64,000 bases of DNA, taken from NCBI RefSeq assembly GCF_003410055.1, contig NZ_QUZK01000041.1, positions 1 through 64,000 on the forward strand, in the 5' to 3' direction. The stretch comes from Wenzhouxiangella sediminis (GTDB taxonomy: Bacteria > Pseudomonadota > Gammaproteobacteria > Xanthomonadales > Wenzhouxiangellaceae). Under the pieces are notes generated by a model, which was not told the DNA's origin, did no database searches, and saw only the letters and a program-made list of their open reading frames with translations. Below are positions 3,177 to 46,968 of the stretch, piece after piece (position 1 is the stretch's first letter; the number at the start of each line of letters is the position of its first letter). A program made the position numbers and the translations under genes.

Positions 3177-5381
3177 CTAGGCCGCGCCGCCGGAGCGTGA
3201 CTGCGCAGGGGCTTGCGCTGCCCGGCGGGCGGTGTCGGAGCGGTTTTCCTGGTGGGCCTCGTTGAGGCGGTGGACGAAGGTGTTGGCGTCCTTGTCCTGG
3301 TCGGTGTCGAAGCCGACGGCGGTGACGGTGCAGGTGAGCGTGTACTCGCCGCTGTCGAGGCGGAAGGGAAACTCGGCCAGCACGTCGAGCAGGCGCTGGC
3401 GGAAGATCCTCGCGCCCTCTTGCTCGGTCATGGGCAGGATGATGAAGGGCACGGCGCGCTGGGATTTCTCCAGCGAGCCGACCAGGTCGAGGTCGCGGGC
3501 CAGGCGCACGATGCGGAAATAGAGTTCGGGCAGCAGCTCGCCGATGTCGCTCTTGCGCGGGCGCCGGGGCGGGCCGCCGTCGTTGGGCACCAGCCATTCG
3601 ACCAGCACCTTGATGACCGAAAACGGGTTGCCGTAGCGCTGCGCGGCCTTGACCTGGTGCTTGAGGAACAGCGCGGTGTTGTTGACGCTGAGTACAGTCG
3701 GTGGCAGCTTCGGCGGCTCCTCGTCGCCGTCGAGCCGCTCGACGAGTTCGTCGATCAGGCGGGCGGCCTGCTGCGGCGAGTAGCCGTGGCGCTTGAGCCG
3801 ATCGGTGATCGCCTCGCTGAGCTCGTCGAGTTCGTCGCGGCTTTCGACCTGCTTTTCGAGCCAGTCGAGCACCAGGGTGTCGGTGAGCTGTTCGCTGCCG
3901 CCGAGCATGCGCTCGAACAGTTCCATCTTGCTCGACTCGCGCAGCTGCGGCATGCGCTGTTCCAGCTCCTGCTCGAGCTGCCGCGAGGCTTCCGGCGACA
4001 TGCCGCCCTCGCCCATGCGCTCGATCAGCTCCTTCTGCACGCGCGAGATCTGGTCGCCCAGGGTGCCCGGGTCGAGCGGTTCGCCGTGCGAGAAGCGGCT
4101 GAGCGCGAGCTTCTGGCTGACGCGCTCGATGTAGTCGGTGAACGCCGCGGAAAGCTGGTTCTGGTCGCTGACCCCGCCCTGGCGCAGCTCGCCGGCCAGC
4201 ACCACCAGTCGCGCGGCCTCGGTGGGATCGTCCTGGATCTTCTGGACGATCTCCTCGACGTCCATGCCGACGTTTTCGGCGCCTGCTTCCAGCGCGCTGA
4301 CCAGGTGCTCGCCGCGCAGTTCGTTGGACAGTTCGTGGACCAGCTGGGTGTACTTGTCGAGCGGCATGCCTTCTTCGATCAGCCCCTTGCGCAGCCGGGG
4401 CAGCAGGCGCTTGAGATCGCCCGCGTCGGGCAGCATGCGGTTGATGATCTGGGCCATGCGCTTGACCGAGAAATTGCCGCCGCGGTATTCCTCGCGCACC
4501 AGGTTGACCAGGGTGGAGTAGGTCAGTTCGTCGACCTCGCTGACCACGCCGCCGCCGTCGGCCATGATGCGGTCGACGTCCTCGTGGGCCGAAACCGACT
4601 TGTGCAGGCGCTGGCGCAGCGTGCTCATGGCCGTGAACAGTTCTTCCGGCGACAGGCCTTCGATGTCGCCGCCGCCCATCTCGACTTCGCGAACCAGTCG
4701 CTTGAGATGTTCGACCAGCCGGGTGCGATTGTCGTTGTTCCCGCCGCTCGATTCGGTCAGCCGCTGCGCGGCGGCGTCGGGATCGCCGGCGAGCTGGCCG
4801 AGCGAGAAGTAGGACTCGAGCTGGCCGAGTACGCGCTCGCTTGCTGCCGAGACCTGTTCCTTCGGCTTCTTGCGCCTGACCGACTCGCCGCGGTCGATGC
4901 CGGAGTCCTCGCTGCTGACGACCTTCTGGTCGGAGGTGACCTTGCGGTAGACGATGTAGTTGAACTGGATGGCGCCGGACTGGCGCGGTCTCAGCTCCGC
5001 CTCGGCGGCGTCGAGCGAGGGATACTCCAGCAGCTTGGCCAGCACGGTGACCAGCGCCTTGGCGTCGGACTCGCTGAAGCCCTTGCTGAAGGTAATCGAC
5101 TCAAGGCCCATCTCGTTGAAGGAGTCGACCATGCGCTTGGGGTTGAAGCGCGCGCCGACCGGGTGTTTCTCGACGAACAGGGTGCCGCGGTCGAGGATGA
5201 GCGACAACGAGCGATCCTTGTTCAGGGCGGCCCCGAGCGTGCCGTGGAAGGTTTCCAGGGCCCGTGCGGTGGTCGGGTGGTCCATGCCGAAGCCGCAGGC
5301 GTTCATGTAGGCGGAGTTGAGCTGGCGGGCGATCAACTCGGCCGTGCGCGCGTCCAGGTTGTGGGCGCTGGGCTGGTTCAC
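3177..5381 (-). CDS. large kinase-coupled protein with degenerate GGDEF-like C-terminus
   Basis: A 734-residue protein I do not recognise as a named family. The first ~130 residues (HPTTARALETFHGTL, a GTLFVEKHPVG turn, then an LESITFSKGFSESDAKALV segment) resemble the accessory module placed before HD or HEAT regions in some bacterial signalling proteins. The middle is long, acidic and helical. The last ~150 residues look like a GGDEF fold (YGNPFSVIKVL, then FIILPMTEQEGARIFRQRLLD), but the GGDEF signature is replaced by RAVPF, so it cannot be a diguanylate cyclase. The GTG start at 5381 overlaps the kinase stop (GTGA), so the two are translationally coupled and this may be the kinase's substrate or partner. 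Confidence 0.7.
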   Translation of the reverse strand: MNQPSAHNLDARTAELIARQLNSAYMNACGFGMDHPTTARALETFHGTLGAALNKDRSLSLILDRGTLFVEKHPVGARFNPKRMVDSFNEMGLESITFSKGFSESDAKALVTVLAKLLEYPSLDAAEAELRPRQSGAIQFNYIVYRKVTSDQKVVSSEDSGIDRGESVRRKKPKEQVSAASERVLGQLESYFSLGQLAGDPDAAAQRLTESSGGNNDNRTRLVEHLKRLVREVEMGGGDIEGLSPEELFTAMSTLRQRLHKSVSAHEDVDRIMADGGGVVSEVDELTYSTLVNLVREEYRGGNFSVKRMAQIINRMLPDAGDLKRLLPRLRKGLIEEGMPLDKYTQLVHELSNELRGEHLVSALEAGAENVGMDVEEIVQKIQDDPTEAARLVVLAGELRQGGVSDQNQLSAAFTDYIERVSQKLALSRFSHGEPLDPGTLGDQISRVQKELIERMGEGGMSPEASRQLEQELEQRMPQLRESSKMELFERMLGGSEQLTDTLVLDWLEKQVESRDELDELSEAITDRLKRHGYSPQQAARLIDELVERLDGDEEPPKLPPTVLSVNNTALFLKHQVKAAQRYGNPFSVIKVLVEWLVPNDGGPPRRPRKSDIGELLPELYFRIVRLARDLDLVGSLEKSQRAVPFIILPMTEQEGARIFRQRLLDVLAEFPFRLDSGEYTLTCTVTAVGFDTDQDKDANTFVHRLNEAHQENRSDTARRAAQAPAQSRSGGAA

Positions 5382-41081: not shown

Positions 41082-41179
41082 AGCGGAACACCCGGATAGA
41101 ATGAGGCGCCGATTATCGCTTTTTTGTCCGGATGCTGCATGAAGTTCGGCTCTGCGGGCGCCGCTGTGGAAAACCCGGT

Positions 41180-41314
41180 AACCACGGAAGACACGGAATG
41201 CACGGAAAAACACAGGAATTCCAGGACGTGCGTTCGGTTCATGGCACGCCCGTTGCGGTCGCCGTGCCATCAAGAGCGCGTTCTTTTTCTTCTTCTTCCG
41301 TGCTTTCCGTGGTT
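41180..41314. repeat. 135-bp inverted-repeat element at the 5' end of a binding-protein gene
   Basis: Terminal arms AACCACGGAAGACACGGAA (41180-41198) and its reverse complement (41296-41314) match at 17 of 19 positions. Inside is a perfect 8-bp hairpin (ATGGCACG 41241-41248 with 41263-41270). CACGGAA words also recur at 41202-41207. It looks like a non-coding, MITE-like repeat that has become the start of the downstream gene. Confidence 0.7.
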
Positions 41315-42823
41315 CCATTGTTTTTGGTTTTCCTGCTCTCCGCGCCCCTCACGTTTGCCGCAACCCTGCATCGGGGTGTCGGGCCCGAGCCCGACTCGCT
41401 CGATATCCACACCGCCCAGAGCCTGTCGGCACTCAACGTGCTGCGCGACCTGCACGAGGGGCTGCTGACCTTCGACGCCGGGGCCGAGCTGATTTCCGGC
41501 GTGGCCCAGTCCTGGTCGGTGAGCGATGACGGTCGGGTCTGGACGTTCGAGCTGGATCCTTCGGCCCGCTGGTCGGACGGTAAGCGAATCGTCGCGCAGG
41601 ACTTCGTCACCGGCTGGCGGCGTGCCCTCGATCCGGCCACGGCCTCGCCCACGGCGGCGCTGCTCGACCCGGTCGAAAACGCCCGGGCGGTTCGTTCGGG
41701 CCGGGCGCAACCCGGTGCGCTGGGCGTCGGCGCGCCGTCGCCGCATCGCCTGGTGGTTCGTCTCGAGCGTCCCACGCCCTGGTTCGGCGAGCTGCTCACG
41801 CACCCGGTGACCTATCCCTGGCCGGGCGAGGGCACAAGTCGTTACAGCGGCGCATTCGTCCTCGACGGTCAGGTGCCCGGCGCCCGTCTCGAACTGCTGC
41901 CCAACGAGCATTACCGGGCGGCCGGCGAGGTCTCGCTGGACGCGGTGACCTGGCACGTGATCGAGCAGCCCAACGTCGAATTGACCCGCTACCGTGCCGG
42001 CCAGCTGCATGTCACCGAGACCATCCCGCCCGGGCGCGTCGACTGGCTGCGCGAGCGCTTCGGCGACGAACTCAGGATTTCACCCTACCTGGGCAGCTTC
42101 TTCCTGGCCTTCAACCTGCAGCGCGAGCCCTTCGCCGACGCCGCGAAGCTGCGCCGGGCGCTGAGCCTGGCCGTCGATCGCGACATCCTGGTCGAGCGGG
42201 TGCTCGGCTCCGGCGAGATACCGGCCTGGGGCCTGCTGCCGCCAGGCATGCCCGGCTGGCCCGAGGGCCGCGAGCCGCCCCTGGCGCCCGGCGAGCGACT
42301 GGTCGAGGCCGAGCGCCTCTACCGCGAGGCCGGCTACGGCGACGACCGGCCGCTGGAGGTCGAGTTGCGCTTCAACACGTCCCTGACCCATCGCCGTATG
42401 GCCGCAGCGATCGCCGCGATGTGGAAGCTCCACCTGGGCGTGCGCACGCGCCTGGTCAACGAGGAGTGGAAGGTGTTCATCACCAATCGCCGGCAGGGCC
42501 GCATTACCGAGGTGTTCCGCGGCGGCTGGATCGCCGACTGGCGCGATGCGGCCAACTTCCTGCAACTGTTCGCCGGCGACAGCCCGGGCAACTACACCTT
42601 TTTCGACGACCCGGTCTTTGACGGGCTGATGCGGCGGGCGGCGAGAGAGCGCGGCGACGAGCGGCTCCGCATCCTGCGCGAGGCCGAAGCCCGCCTGCTC
42701 GACGAACAGGTCATCGTGCCGCTGTACTACTATGTCTCCAGGCATCTCGTGGACCCGGACGTGCGCGGATTCGAGGACAACCCCATGGATATTCACCTGT
42801 CGCGCTGGATGTCGTTGCCGTGA
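41300..42823 (+). CDS. peptide ABC transporter substrate-binding protein 1 (family 5)
   Basis: About 507 residues, extracytoplasmic peptide-binding protein of the OppA/SBP_bac_5 family. The opening [19 protein letters not shown] and [22 protein letters not shown] are characteristic. GTG 41300 starts a clean signal peptide ([13 protein letters not shown], cleavage near TFA), but no ribosome site is seen; the frame stays open back to ATG 41132 with repeat-derived, poor-quality sequence. Its signal peptide is partly encoded by the inverted repeat at 41180-41314. Its stop overlaps the second binding-protein gene (GTGA). Confidence 0.88.
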
Positions 42824-44532
42824 AGCGTCTGGGCGCACTCTGCCTGCTCTTTGCGCTGGCCGGCTGCGGCGAGCGCGAGGCCCATGCGCCAGAGGCAGTG
42901 CCGGCCCTGGCCGAGCCGGTCGACGTGGTCTTCGGCGAAGACGGCCGCCCGCTGCCCGAAGTGCTCGCCGAATCGCAGGTCGTCCATCGCGGCAACGGCG
43001 AAGAGCCGCAAACCCTGGACCCGCACTTGGCCGAGGGCGTGCCGTCCAGCAATATCCTGCGCGACCTGTTCGAAGGCCTGACGACGACCGCGCCGGACGG
43101 TCGGATCGTTCCGGGCGCCGCCCGCCACTGGGACATCAGTCGCGACGGCCTGACCTATACCTTCTTTCTCGATCCGGACGGACGATGGAGCAACGGCGAA
43201 CCCGTTACCGCCGATGATTTCGTCTGGTCGTGGCGGCGCGCGGTTGACCCGGCCACCGGTGCTTCCTACAGCCGCATGCTCTCGCCGATCGTCAACGCCG
43301 AGGCGATCCTGGCCGGCGAATCGCCGCCCGAGGCGCTCGGTGTGGAGGCGCTCAACGACATGACTTTCCAGGTCGAGCTCAAGGATCCCACGCCCTACTT
43401 TCTTGGCCTGCTGACCCATCCCACCAGCTATCCCGTGCACCGTCCCACGGTCGAACAGCACGGCGACAGTCACGTACGCCCGGGCAACCTGGTCTCCAAC
43501 GGCGCCTTCATGCTCGACGACTGGCGGGTGCGCTCCAGTATCGAACTGGTCAGGAATCCGCACTACCGGGACGCTGACGACGTGCTGGTCGAGCGCGTCG
43601 TCTTCTATCCCTTCGAAGACGAGAACACCGAGTTCAACCGATTCCGGGCCGGCGACCTGCACTGGACCTACCAGGTGCCGAACAACCAGTTTCAGTGGCT
43701 CAGGAAGAACATGCCCCAGGCCTTGATGGTCGCGCCCTGGTTCGGCACCTACTTCTTCTCCTTCAACCTCACGCGCGAGCCCTTCGAAGACAACCTGGCG
43801 TTGCGGCAGGCGCTCAACCTGGCCGTCGATCGCGAGATCCTCACCGAGCAGGTCAGCCGTTTCGGGGAGATCCCGACGTTCAACCTGGTGCCGCCGGGCC
43901 TGCCGGAGTACGAGTCACCGGAGACTCCCTGGGCCGGCATGACTCAGGAAGAACGCGAGGCCGAGGCAAAGCGCCTCTACCGCGAAGCCGGTTACAGCGA
44001 GCAGCGGCCGCTGGAGGTCGAGCTGCGCTACAACACCTCGGAGAACCATCGAAAGATCGCCGTGGCCGTGGCCGCCATGTGGAAACAGGTCCTGGGCGTG
44101 CGCACCCGCCTGATCAACGAGGAGTTCCGCGTCTTCCTGCAGAACCGCGCCCAGCGCCGCGTCACCGAGGTGTTCCGTTCGGGCTGGATCGGCGACTACC
44201 AGGATGCCTTCACCTTCCTGGAGCTGTTCCACTCCGAGCACGGCCGCAACGACGCCGGCTACGACAGCGAACGCTACGACCGCCTGCTTCAACGCATCGC
44301 CGCCGAACGCATCCCGGCCAGCCGACGCAACCTGATGGCCGAGGCCGAACGCATGATCCTCGCCGACCAGGTCATCCTGCCCGTCTACAACTACGTCACA
44401 AAACGCCTCATCGACCCCCGCCTGAAAGGCTGGGAAGAAAACGTCATGGACCACCACCTGACGCGCCATATGTTCCTGGTCAAAGCCAAGTCGGCAATCG
44501 AGGCGTCGGAGGAGGCTGATGGTGGGGAGTAA
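42820..44532 (+). CDS. peptide ABC transporter substrate-binding lipoprotein 2 (family 5)
   Basis: A 570-residue lipoprotein of the same family as its upstream neighbour. Lipobox LAGC gives a lipid Cys near residue 16. It has GNGEEPQTLDPHLAEG and WSNGEPVTADDFVWSWRRAVDP. A shared C-terminal half (YREAGY...[11 protein letters not shown], then GVRTRLINEEFRVFLQNR) shows that the pair arose by duplication. It should bind oligopeptides for the permease encoded downstream. The GTG start overlaps the previous stop. The 3' end abuts the GxxExxY element. Confidence 0.93.
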   Translation: MKRLGALCLLFALAGCGEREAHAPEAVPALAEPVDVVFGEDGRPLPEVLAESQVVHRGNGEEPQTLDPHLAEGVPSSNILRDLFEGLTTTAPDGRIVPGAARHWDISRDGLTYTFFLDPDGRWSNGEPVTADDFVWSWRRAVDPATGASYSRMLSPIVNAEAILAGESPPEALGVEALNDMTFQVELKDPTPYFLGLLTHPTSYPVHRPTVEQHGDSHVRPGNLVSNGAFMLDDWRVRSSIELVRNPHYRDADDVLVERVVFYPFEDENTEFNRFRAGDLHWTYQVPNNQFQWLRKNMPQALMVAPWFGTYFFSFNLTREPFEDNLALRQALNLAVDREILTEQVSRFGEIPTFNLVPPGLPEYESPETPWAGMTQEEREAEAKRLYREAGYSEQRPLEVELRYNTSENHRKIAVAVAAMWKQVLGVRTRLINEEFRVFLQNRAQRRVTEVFRSGWIGDYQDAFTFLELFHSEHGRNDAGYDSERYDRLLQRIAAERIPASRRNLMAEAERMILADQVILPVYNYVTKRLIDPRLKGWEENVMDHHLTRHMFLVKAKSAIEASEEADGGE

Positions 44533-44962
44533 TGTCGGTTCTCGCAATGGCGCAAAGGCGCTAAGGACGCAAGGAAGATCGGAGAATGAGTTGTCGGCGC
44601 TTGTGGTGGAGGAAGCAATGAGACTCCACCGCGGCCTGGGGCCAGGCTTGCTGGAAAATGTGTATGAGACCATTCTTGCCAAAAAGCTCGAAGAGCGCGG
44701 GGTGTCGGTGAGAAAGCAGGTGCAGGTACCCCTGATCTACGAGGGAATTGCCTCCGATGCTGCGTTTCGCGCTGATATCGTCGCTGACGACAAGCTGATC
44801 CTCGAGATCAAGGCTGTCGAAAAACTCAATAACGCGCACAGGAAGCAGGTTCTGACCTATTTGAAACTAACGGGCATGCGACTCGGCATGATCCTGAATT
44901 TCAGCTCCGAATTGATGAAGCACGGAATCGTCCGAGTGGCAAACGAACTTGATGATGATTAG
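44519..44962 (+). CDS. GxxExxY-family protein
   Basis: A 147-residue member of the GxxExxY family. The name motif is GLLENVY (43-49) after a typical ELSALVVEEAMRLHRGLGPG lead. Asp86, then Glu96-x-Lys98 (LILEIKAV), and Gln110 match a PD-(D/E)xK nuclease core, so nuclease activity is an inference. ATG 44519 lies within the end of the binding-protein gene and reads through the left terminal repeat; family members usually start near residue 22 here, so the true start is uncertain. The gene fills a 469-bp element with inverted ends (44539-45007). Confidence 0.85.
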   Translation: MVGSNVGSRNGAKALRTQGRSENELSALVVEEAMRLHRGLGPGLLENVYETILAKKLEERGVSVRKQVQVPLIYEGIASDAAFRADIVADDKLILEIKAVEKLNNAHRKQVLTYLKLTGMRLGMILNFSSELMKHGIVRVANELDDD

Positions 44963-45007
44963 TTCAATAAACTTTGTGCCCTTTGCGCCTTCGCGCCATT
45001 GCGAGAA
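44539..45007. mobile_element. small GxxExxY element with terminal inverted repeats
   Basis: The ends 44539-44572 and 44974-45007 are inverted copies matching at 30 of 34 positions, starting TTCTCGCAATGGCGC. They enclose only the GxxExxY gene. The element sits exactly between a binding-protein gene and its permease gene in an otherwise continuous peptide-transport operon. The repeat words (GGCGCAAAGG) are of the type seen around such genes in other genomes. No transposase and no clear target duplication were seen. Confidence 0.7.
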
Positions 45008-45040: not shown

Positions 45041-45979
45041 GTGCTGAAGTATTCGCTTCGGCGGCTGGGGTCGGCGATTCCGACGCTGTTTTTGCTGATC
45101 ACTTTCGCGTTTTTCCTGATTCGCATCGCGCCGGGTGGGCCGTTCGATTCGGAGCGGGCCTTGCCGGCGGATATCGAGGCCAACCTGGCGGCGAAGTATC
45201 ATCTCGACGAGCCGCTGGTGTTCCAGTACGCGCGCTATCTCTGGCAGATCGCCCGCGGCGACCTGGGGCCGTCGTTCCACTACCGCGATTGGACGGTCAA
45301 CGACCTGATCATCCAGGGCGCACCGGTGTCGTTTCTGTTGGGTGCGGCGGCATTGTTGCTGGCCCTGGTCATCGGGGTGATCACCGGCGCCTGGGCGGCA
45401 TTGCGGCAGAACCGGCCGGCCGACTACACGGTGATGAGCATCGCGATGGTCGGCATCTCGATTCCCAACTTCGTCATGGCGCCGCTGCTGATCCTGCTGT
45501 TCGCCATCGTGCTCGGCTGGGTACCGGCCGGCGGCTGGGCCTTCAGCTTCGACCGCATGGTGCTGCCGGTGGTCACGCTCGCGCTGCCGATGATCGCCTA
45601 CATCGCGCGCATCACCCGCGGGTCGATGATCGAGGTGCTGCACTCGAGCTATATCCGCACGGTGCGGGCCAAGGGCATGCCCGAAAAGGAAGTCATCCTG
45701 CGCCACGCCCTCAAGCCTGCGCTGTTGCCGGTGATTTCCTACCTCGGCCCGGCCGCCGCGGCCATCCTGACCGGCTCGGTGGTGGTCGAGCGCATCTTCA
45801 CCATCCCGGGCATCGGCTCGTACTTCGTGCAGGGCGCGCTCAACCGCGACTACACGCTGGTGATGGGCGTGGTCATCCTCTATGGTGTGCTCATCATCCT
45901 GTTCAACTTCCTGGTCGACCTGATCTATGCCTTCCTGGATCCGCGCATTCGCTATGACGACGGGGAGACCGAGACGTGA
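45041..45979 (+). CDS. oppB: peptide ABC transporter permease, OppB type
   Basis: A 312-residue permease with six membrane helices. The N-terminal signature YSLRRLGSAIPTLFLLI, the ASHLGTP-like IARGDLGPSF region, and the EAA loop RAKGMPEKEVILRHALKPAL contacting the ATPases are all present. GTG 45041 follows GGAGG at the proper spacing. The stop overlaps oppC (GTGA). The ribosome site lies just outside the right end of the GxxExxY element, so the insertion did not damage the gene. Confidence 0.94.
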   Translation: MLKYSLRRLGSAIPTLFLLITFAFFLIRIAPGGPFDSERALPADIEANLAAKYHLDEPLVFQYARYLWQIARGDLGPSFHYRDWTVNDLIIQGAPVSFLLGAAALLLALVIGVITGAWAALRQNRPADYTVMSIAMVGISIPNFVMAPLLILLFAIVLGWVPAGGWAFSFDRMVLPVVTLALPMIAYIARITRGSMIEVLHSSYIRTVRAKGMPEKEVILRHALKPALLPVISYLGPAAAAILTGSVVVERIFTIPGIGSYFVQGALNRDYTLVMGVVILYGVLIILFNFLVDLIYAFLDPRIRYDDGETET

Positions 45980-46884: not shown

Positions 46885-46893
46885 CATCACAAA

Positions 46894-46921
46894 GGTTTCA
46901 GGTTTCAGGTTTCAGGTTTCA
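46894..46921 (+). repeat. four tandem GGTTTCA heptamers
   Basis: Four perfect copies of GGTTTCA in the 84-base oppC-oppD spacer. A 33-codon frame overlapping the oppC stop runs through it, and copy-number change would shift that frame. Confidence 0.95.
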
Positions 46922-46968
46922 GGAAGAGCACCGGGTAGAAGGCTCGGAGTGGTCTTTGAGAGGTTGTC

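Follow-up and report, generated by a model that had tools for sequence, protein, structure and literature searches.

The window analysed here is a 64-kb stretch of DNA from Wenzhouxiangella sediminis (genome G000), and it carries a 469-bp unit at positions 44539–45007 whose single enclosed gene belongs to the GxxExxY family (TIGR04256/PF13366). The unit is bounded by two arms of 34 nt, the left one at 44539–44572 on the forward strand and the right one, its inverted copy, at 44974–45007 on the reverse strand. The arms are complementary at 30 of 34 positions (88%) and spaced by 401 nt, and their local score of 48, against a maximum of 29 among 30 shuffles, bears out the initial annotation, which had described a GxxExxY gene inside a 469-bp element with inverted ends. 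They are built of an outer TTCTCGC followed by the short direct repeats CGCAATGG, CGCAAAGG, CGCTAAGGA and CGCAAGG. As had also been stated, the unit lies between a binding-protein gene (stop at 44532) and oppB, and the latter starts with GTG at 45041, the position from which relatives align to it in BLAST. The longest open reading frame of the GxxExxY gene runs from an ATG at 44519 to 44962 and starts outside the left arm, so that the arm would be translated. The profile match in it spans 44591–44935. Since it begins at a TTG codon preceded by GGAG, the gene proper probably occupies 44591–44962 on the forward strand, with TTG as its start, and lies entirely between the arms. Elsewhere in the window, CACGGAA-type iterons form what may be an inverted doublet with no gene at 41168–41333, inside the 5' part of ORF 41132–42823 (the first binding-protein ORF), whose real start may be further downstream; the candidate rests on iteron words recognised by eye, and at its score of 32 the block-shuffled window also gave 3 hits. 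Four consecutive AGGTTTC heptamers can be read in the printed sequence at 46893–46923 on the forward strand, between oppC and oppD, and the same heptamer is the arm word of a four-helix-bundle gene of G000 (L099 at C19).

The window protein exceeds the cut-offs of both family profiles, with 127.2 bits (E 3.7e-37) against a curated cut-off of 35 for TIGR04256 and 126.5 bits (E 8.4e-37) against 22 for PF13366 (PDDEXK_3). It belongs to these entries, which as shown name the protein only and mention neither arms nor doublets. In a 21-row alignment, the invariant residues comprise G43, E46 and Y49 of GxxExxY, D86, E96-x-K98 and Q110, and likewise G41, Y114 and N127; together with the family matches, E46, D86, E96, K98 and Q110 uphold the earlier reading of the sole enclosed gene as carrying GxxExxY, D-x9-E-x-K and Gln motifs. 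With the D, the ExK and the supporting E and Q all in place, its sequence marks the protein as a predicted nuclease of the PD-(D/E)xK type. The AlphaFold model (pLDDT 89.5, pTM 0.80) has weak best matches among solved structures in Foldseek, namely Cas4-like SSO0001 (4ic1, E 7.5e-4) and the LHK and lambda exonucleases, and the top 8 rows show TM-scores of 0.44–0.51 by query length and identities of 14–19%. QxxxY after ExK is a meaningful motif of Cas4/RecB-type nucleases, and it is present in the window protein. Cas4 nucleases carry an FeS cluster, but such a cluster is ruled out in the window protein because it has 0 cysteines, which sets it apart from Cas4-like SSO0001. A PDB sequence search with the GxxExxY alignment gave no match at E up to 1. 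The dN/dS values of the gene in three pairs (0.022, 0.052 and 0.091) point to strong purifying selection on the protein. Furthermore, none of the four GxxExxY proteins searched matched the PADLOC defence models or the PHROGs phage families (0/4 each), and a defence or phage family was rejected on these results.

GxxExxY genes of many phyla sit between comparable arms. Arms scoring at least 32 are found at 36 of 40 GxxExxY loci in relatives (L012 being doubtful), at 22 of 27 loci of a phylum sample and at 55 of 77 loci in a set of named genomes that covers many phyla. Of 283 shifted control windows, 3 reach this score, and two of these three are iteron arrays themselves. The loci below the threshold number 4/40, 5/27 and 22/77, respectively. 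Flanks of 400 bp were scored for the relatives and for the four-helix-bundle loci of the genus discussed below, and flanks of 300 bp for the named genomes, the phylum samples and the pooled set; 77 of 80 named-genome loci were testable, and 27 of 29 phylum loci were read, the other 2 being without protein. Loci whose translated stretch was interrupted by a stop had been removed before pooling; of the 127 loci in the pooled set, the 93 whose arms were strong and shorter than 70 nt were selected (42 from named genomes, 30 from relatives and 21 from the phylum sample). At least three CRCNRAK motifs occur in 83 of the 93 selected arm pairs and in 0/93 shuffled ones, and the control windows and these shuffles together make chance low-complexity repeats unlikely. 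One clear period of 8–10 bp is present in only 28 of the 93 left arms (8 bp in 13, 9 bp in 7, 10 bp in 8), with 12 bp in 1 and none in 64 at the cut used. Moreover, arm-word similarity follows protein identity (Mantel r 0.48, and 0.35 between sets), with 0/2000 permutations as high. When GC is controlled, the values are 0.482 and 0.349 with 0/999 permutations as high, host kinship beyond GC being left in.

A sibling arrangement surrounds four-helix-bundle genes (TIGR02436), which have arms at 22 of 28 loci within the genus. In a phylum sample, 24 of 29 loci were scored, partial genes being left out, and 16 of the 24 have arms, versus 0/47 controls. A 7-bp period is seen in 12 of 18 strongly matching left arms of the genus loci. 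Many of these genes (L095–L122, L262–L290) lie between inverted heptamer arrays whose word varies by locus, including GTAGGCA, GGTGAAA, AGGTTTC, GGGACTC and others. Some gene-less doublets read in G010 and G016 at orthologous gaps resemble, by eye, the arms that flank L121 and L109, the four-helix-bundle genes of these two genomes. The S23 protein is also a four-helix-bundle. The excerpted text of PMC4990558 describes the 23S rRNA intervening sequence as a 428-nt selfish unit that holds the S23 protein gene and is removed from RNA by RNase III. This intervening sequence is comparable as a selfish unit with one small gene, but it sits in rRNA and, as far as the excerpt goes, encodes S23 and no nuclease (PMC4990558).

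The likeness of the two arrangements makes a shared outside machinery conceivable, in which case the arms could form a MITE-like family moved by an enzyme encoded elsewhere, with GxxExxY as a cargo caught between two of them. This explanation would also accommodate the doublets that persist with no cognate gene detected in G010, G021, G016, G009 and G001. It appears unlikely nonetheless, as arms enclose genes of this one family across many phyla and the arm word follows the protein sequence, also between sets. Additionally, no target duplication accompanies the elements, and Y1 transposase (PF01797), the only transposase family sought, has no match in G000, although the search finds matches in 5 of 14 control genomes. 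A RAYT as the mobiliser was rejected, none being found in G000.

Copies of the arms are scattered over the genome of W. sediminis. A search of G000 with the 469-bp unit gave 32 matches, one of them the unit itself and the others arm-sized. Reading of 16 stretches yielded 39 arm copies, arranged as 19 inverted doublets (84–254 bp) and 1 single arm; 15 of the doublets have the TTCTCGC-type word and 4 an older TTCACGCC-type word. With at most one mismatch allowed, the end pattern has 37 matches in G000 and its reversed-pattern control 0. Most of the 37 matches belong to 17 gene-less doublets; the rest come from the gene-bearing unit and from one arm paired with a partner of the other word. The end-sequence search through genome and relatives, which had been suggested earlier, thus found many copies at home and 0 matches in the four nearest relatives examined (G009, G016, G010 and G024); there are 19 in G028, 7 in G011, 6 in G001, 5 in G022 and no more than 2 in any of the 25 remaining genomes. 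A TCTCGC-armed gene is present in 4 of the 5 genomes with at least five matches and in 0/25 others (Fisher p 1.8e-4, with cut and arm scoring chosen post hoc and the arms of G013 unreadable), and in G001, with its 6 matches, no GxxExxY gene was found. G028 (L020) and G011 (L022) have additional forward and reverse arms stacked upstream of their GxxExxY gene, at about 416–670 of these loci, and the number of these arms is not the same in the two species. G000 itself holds two further GxxExxY genes, at C45 and C50, away from these doublets, and its three GxxExxY units have three different arm words.

The gene-less doublets (minis) are mostly extragenic, with 3 of 35 crossed by a long open frame. 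Strong folding is predicted for them, with a mean z of -7.8 for 14 minis against base-shuffled copies, and a known RNA family was rejected as 5 loci gave no Rfam match. The interiors of these minis are barely more alike than shuffles (15.9 vs 14.0), and those of the second word described below give 15.3–15.8 vs 13.9–15.4, on which grounds recent copying of the minis from a single ancestor was rejected. Of 41 doublet interiors, 5–7 share a GAATTCA/AATTCAA motif.

The occupancy of the site varies among species. Across 13 readable species, the gap between the binding-protein gene and oppB holds, by eye, a GxxExxY gene in 4 (that of G004 being broken), gene-less arms of other types in 6 and none in 3; this count leaves out G027, G017, G019, G002, G012, G025, G023 and G006, along with G021 and G014, where contigs end. 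The gene is thus not at the opp site in all relatives read. Units with a gene occupy this opp site also in G024, G022, G014 and, from another genus, G034. GxxExxY units of different species fall at a few common sites, and at three further gaps other species have other arms or nothing.

Two observations would fit a classical minimal transposon or a homing-type element that moves whole with its gene. The C45 unit of G000 is 94–98% identical to that of G016 while most flank windows are 81–94% identical, as after recent transfer into the same site. At one conserved site, two species (L060, L031) have a GxxExxY protein only about 31–38% identical to those of L055, L029, L026, L028, L057 and L058, and their arms carry a different word, CACCGAA, which looks like a replacement of the unit. 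Such an element is nevertheless very improbable. No target-site duplication was seen at 20 elements, where the longest adjacent direct repeat is 0–1 nt. Target duplications and palindromic targets were rejected by comparing flank pairs with mismatched pairs (inverted mean 9.65 vs 9.48, direct 8.55 vs 8.35). The three GxxExxY units of G000, with their three words, are not recent copies of each other, and the sites are common to species. Spread by plasmids was rejected as well, since tblastn with the window protein found only 8 of 72,556 plasmid records. Comparison of opp gaps had been proposed as a means of fixing the insertion boundaries and any target duplication, and it yielded neither, as no filled and empty pair with near-identical flanks was found to define an insertion. 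Of the initial suggestion of a minimal mobile or selfish nuclease element, the minimal unit, the inverted arms and the further end copies in G000 stand; simple jumping is not supported, in view of the lacking duplication, the shared opp sites and the rarity on plasmids.

A comparison with G024 relates the scattered doublets to the gene at the opp site. The GxxExxY gene at the opp site of G024 has a protein identity of 65%, flanks of 80–85% identity and arms of the word CTCACGCCA. The corresponding arm pattern has, as expected beforehand, many matches in G024 (30, two being the arms of its own gene), and elsewhere 17 in G009, 11 in G000, 10 in G028, 4 in G011 and at most 1 in others; 13 of the 14 matches in G028 and G011 are of the TCTCGCC type at one mismatch. 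Opp-gene arms and scattered doublets share their word in two genomes, G000 and G024. Moreover, 7 of the 17 first-word doublet sites of G000 are orthologous to 7 of 15 sites of the other word in G024. At the telling positions of these seven sites, G000 arms have T in 14/14 and A in 13/14, and G024/G009 arms have A and C in 16/16, counts that are favoured by the patterns used in locus finding. As G000 keeps older-word doublets, one common to G024 (L350/L334) and one to G009 (L053/L349), TCACGCCA is probably the ancestral word. In G009, 17 matches of TCACGCCA are present and no cognate gene was found, the opp locus being absent from this 75%-complete assembly.

A far-reaching interpretation of this switch is that the nuclease would cut related arms anywhere, which would then be overwritten by the arm type of its own gene. 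A change of word would be copied in place into dozens of doublets, and the arms would constitute pan-bacterial selfish or domesticated repeats under concerted evolution. We consider this rather doubtful. Among 8 comparisons at word-switch sites, interior similarity is notable only for L054/L346 (0/200 shuffles as high) and L054/L328 (2/200). Interior homology was not accepted as proof of in-place rewriting, because the GAATTCA/AATTCAA motif recurs and one second-word site has different doublets in the nearest relatives.

The second word, CCACAGATGAACACAG (CCACAGATGAA), forms the arms of the GxxExxY unit of G000 at C50. It has 35 matches in G000, 31 in G010, 26 in G024, 14 in G021, 7 in G016, 5 in G018, 1 in G009, 1 in G014 and 0 in 22 genomes, a few of these matches being overlapping registers of one arm. 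Reading of 34 second-word doublets (14 in G000, 9 in G024 and 11 in G010) showed orthologs of the same word, among those read in G024 or G010, for 10 of the 14 G000 doublets. In 13 of 16 orthologous pairs, the arms are identical at 753/780 positions (96.5%), the interiors at 719/1264 (57%; shuffled 47%) and the flanks at 5177/6240 (83%), a comparison biased by the pattern, which demands conserved arms. The pairs left out are L296/L312, L297/L322 and L298/L314, of unequal length or with a badly placed end, whose arms agree at 29+30, 30+22 and 29+29 of 30+30 positions. No cognate second-word gene was found in G010 (99% complete, 31 matches) or in the less complete G021 (14) and G016 (7), and that of G024 is truncated. 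G009 has a CACAGATGAA gene, yet only 1 match of the second word. Arm copies do not need a present gene, since G010, G021, G016, G009 and G001 hold them with no cognate found.

Turnover of doublets at fixed gaps is real. When one second-word site is viewed free of the pattern's bias, the L045:568-711 gap holds CACAGATGAA doublets in G000, G024 and G010, CACCGAA arms in G009 and G016 and degraded ones of this kind in G027 (orthologous gaps L233–L237), and no clear arms in several others. Compared with G000, the interiors at this site are matched as well by only 2/300 shuffles for G024 and 5/300 for G010, as against 111/300 for G009 and 115/300 for G016. By DNA, G009 and G016 are the nearest relatives of G000, and because they hold other doublets here, doublet inheritance is not simply vertical. 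Whole doublets seem to have been replaced at this second-word site, rather than their arms rewritten. Gap b of L045 (L241, L247–L252) has single-sided heptamer arrays (GGGTTCA, GGTGACG, GGTCGGT, GGGACTC) in several species, with no obvious inverted partner.

The REPs between malE and malF are known for mRNA stabilisation. Intercistronic doublets could likewise be RNA hairpins that the host retains because they serve the stability or processing of its mRNA, and the gene would then be a resident that may or may not be present. The strong predicted folding of the minis, the arms of some kind seen by eye in the binding-protein/oppB gap of 10/13 readable species, the greater likeness of arms than flanks in orthologous pairs (with its selection bias) and the local arm duplications in G011 and G028 would all suit such a role. 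It is quite unlikely as the whole explanation, as hairpins of this kind leave unexplained the word that scattered doublets and opp-gene arms share within G000 and within G024, and the corresponding gaps are empty in several species.

The reading that we favour, at slightly better than even chances, is that iteron-armed inverted doublets form a family organised in the manner of REPIN-RAYT systems, with the unit as the member that carries the gene and with a PD-(D/E)xK nuclease as the cognate enzyme, which recognises the arms and spreads, maintains or replaces the doublets. The small nuclease would recognise its own arms, whose CRCNRAK repeats may pair as a hairpin or cruciform, and cut matching arms, with repair from another copy to follow. 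By cutting and repair, gene-less doublets would be spread, maintained or replaced in intergenic gaps, while the GxxExxY gene itself would stay at a few sites common to species, as in REPIN-RAYT. We infer the binding, cutting, copying or conversion by GxxExxY, as well as any use to the host.

The resemblance is to REPIN-RAYT rather than to an insertion sequence, because the gene-less doublet is the numerous form. As excerpts of the literature describe it, a RAYT gene is flanked by its own repeats, which also form extragenic inverted doublets that fold into hairpins (Bertels and Rainey 2011, PMC3116915; Nunvar et al. 2013, PMC3686654). According to the excerpted part of PMC3686654, abundant REPs usually accompany a RAYT gene and sometimes outlive it, and Nunvar et al. 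2013 called a change of repeat class at both gene and repeats an orthoswitch. On these accounts the two systems are alike in a gene flanked by matching repeats, extragenic hairpin-forming doublets, repeats outliving the gene and a word change at gene and repeats. That G010 keeps its copies although no cognate gene was found there speaks most clearly against the gene being strictly required, and it has a parallel in REPs outliving RAYT (excerpt of PMC3686654). The systems differ in that the GxxExxY enzyme is of the PD-(D/E)xK type and RAYT is a tyrosine transposase, so that membership fails on the enzyme. Furthermore, GxxExxY arms are arrays of short direct repeats over about 34–40 nt, and one gap may hold different words by species. 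No description of the arms or doublets, or of a GxxExxY function, was found in open-licence papers, preprints being outside the scope, and the arm words turned up only in unrelated contexts.

GxxExxY genes are widespread in bacterial phyla, and if they truly encode repeat-tending enzymes, a class of unexplained intergenic repeats would gain a cause. A second, unrelated enzyme class would then run a REPIN-like economy beside the tyrosine transposases. Specificity and arm exchange can be tested directly on the opp genes of these two genomes, G000 and G024, which differ in their arm word and each have minis to match.
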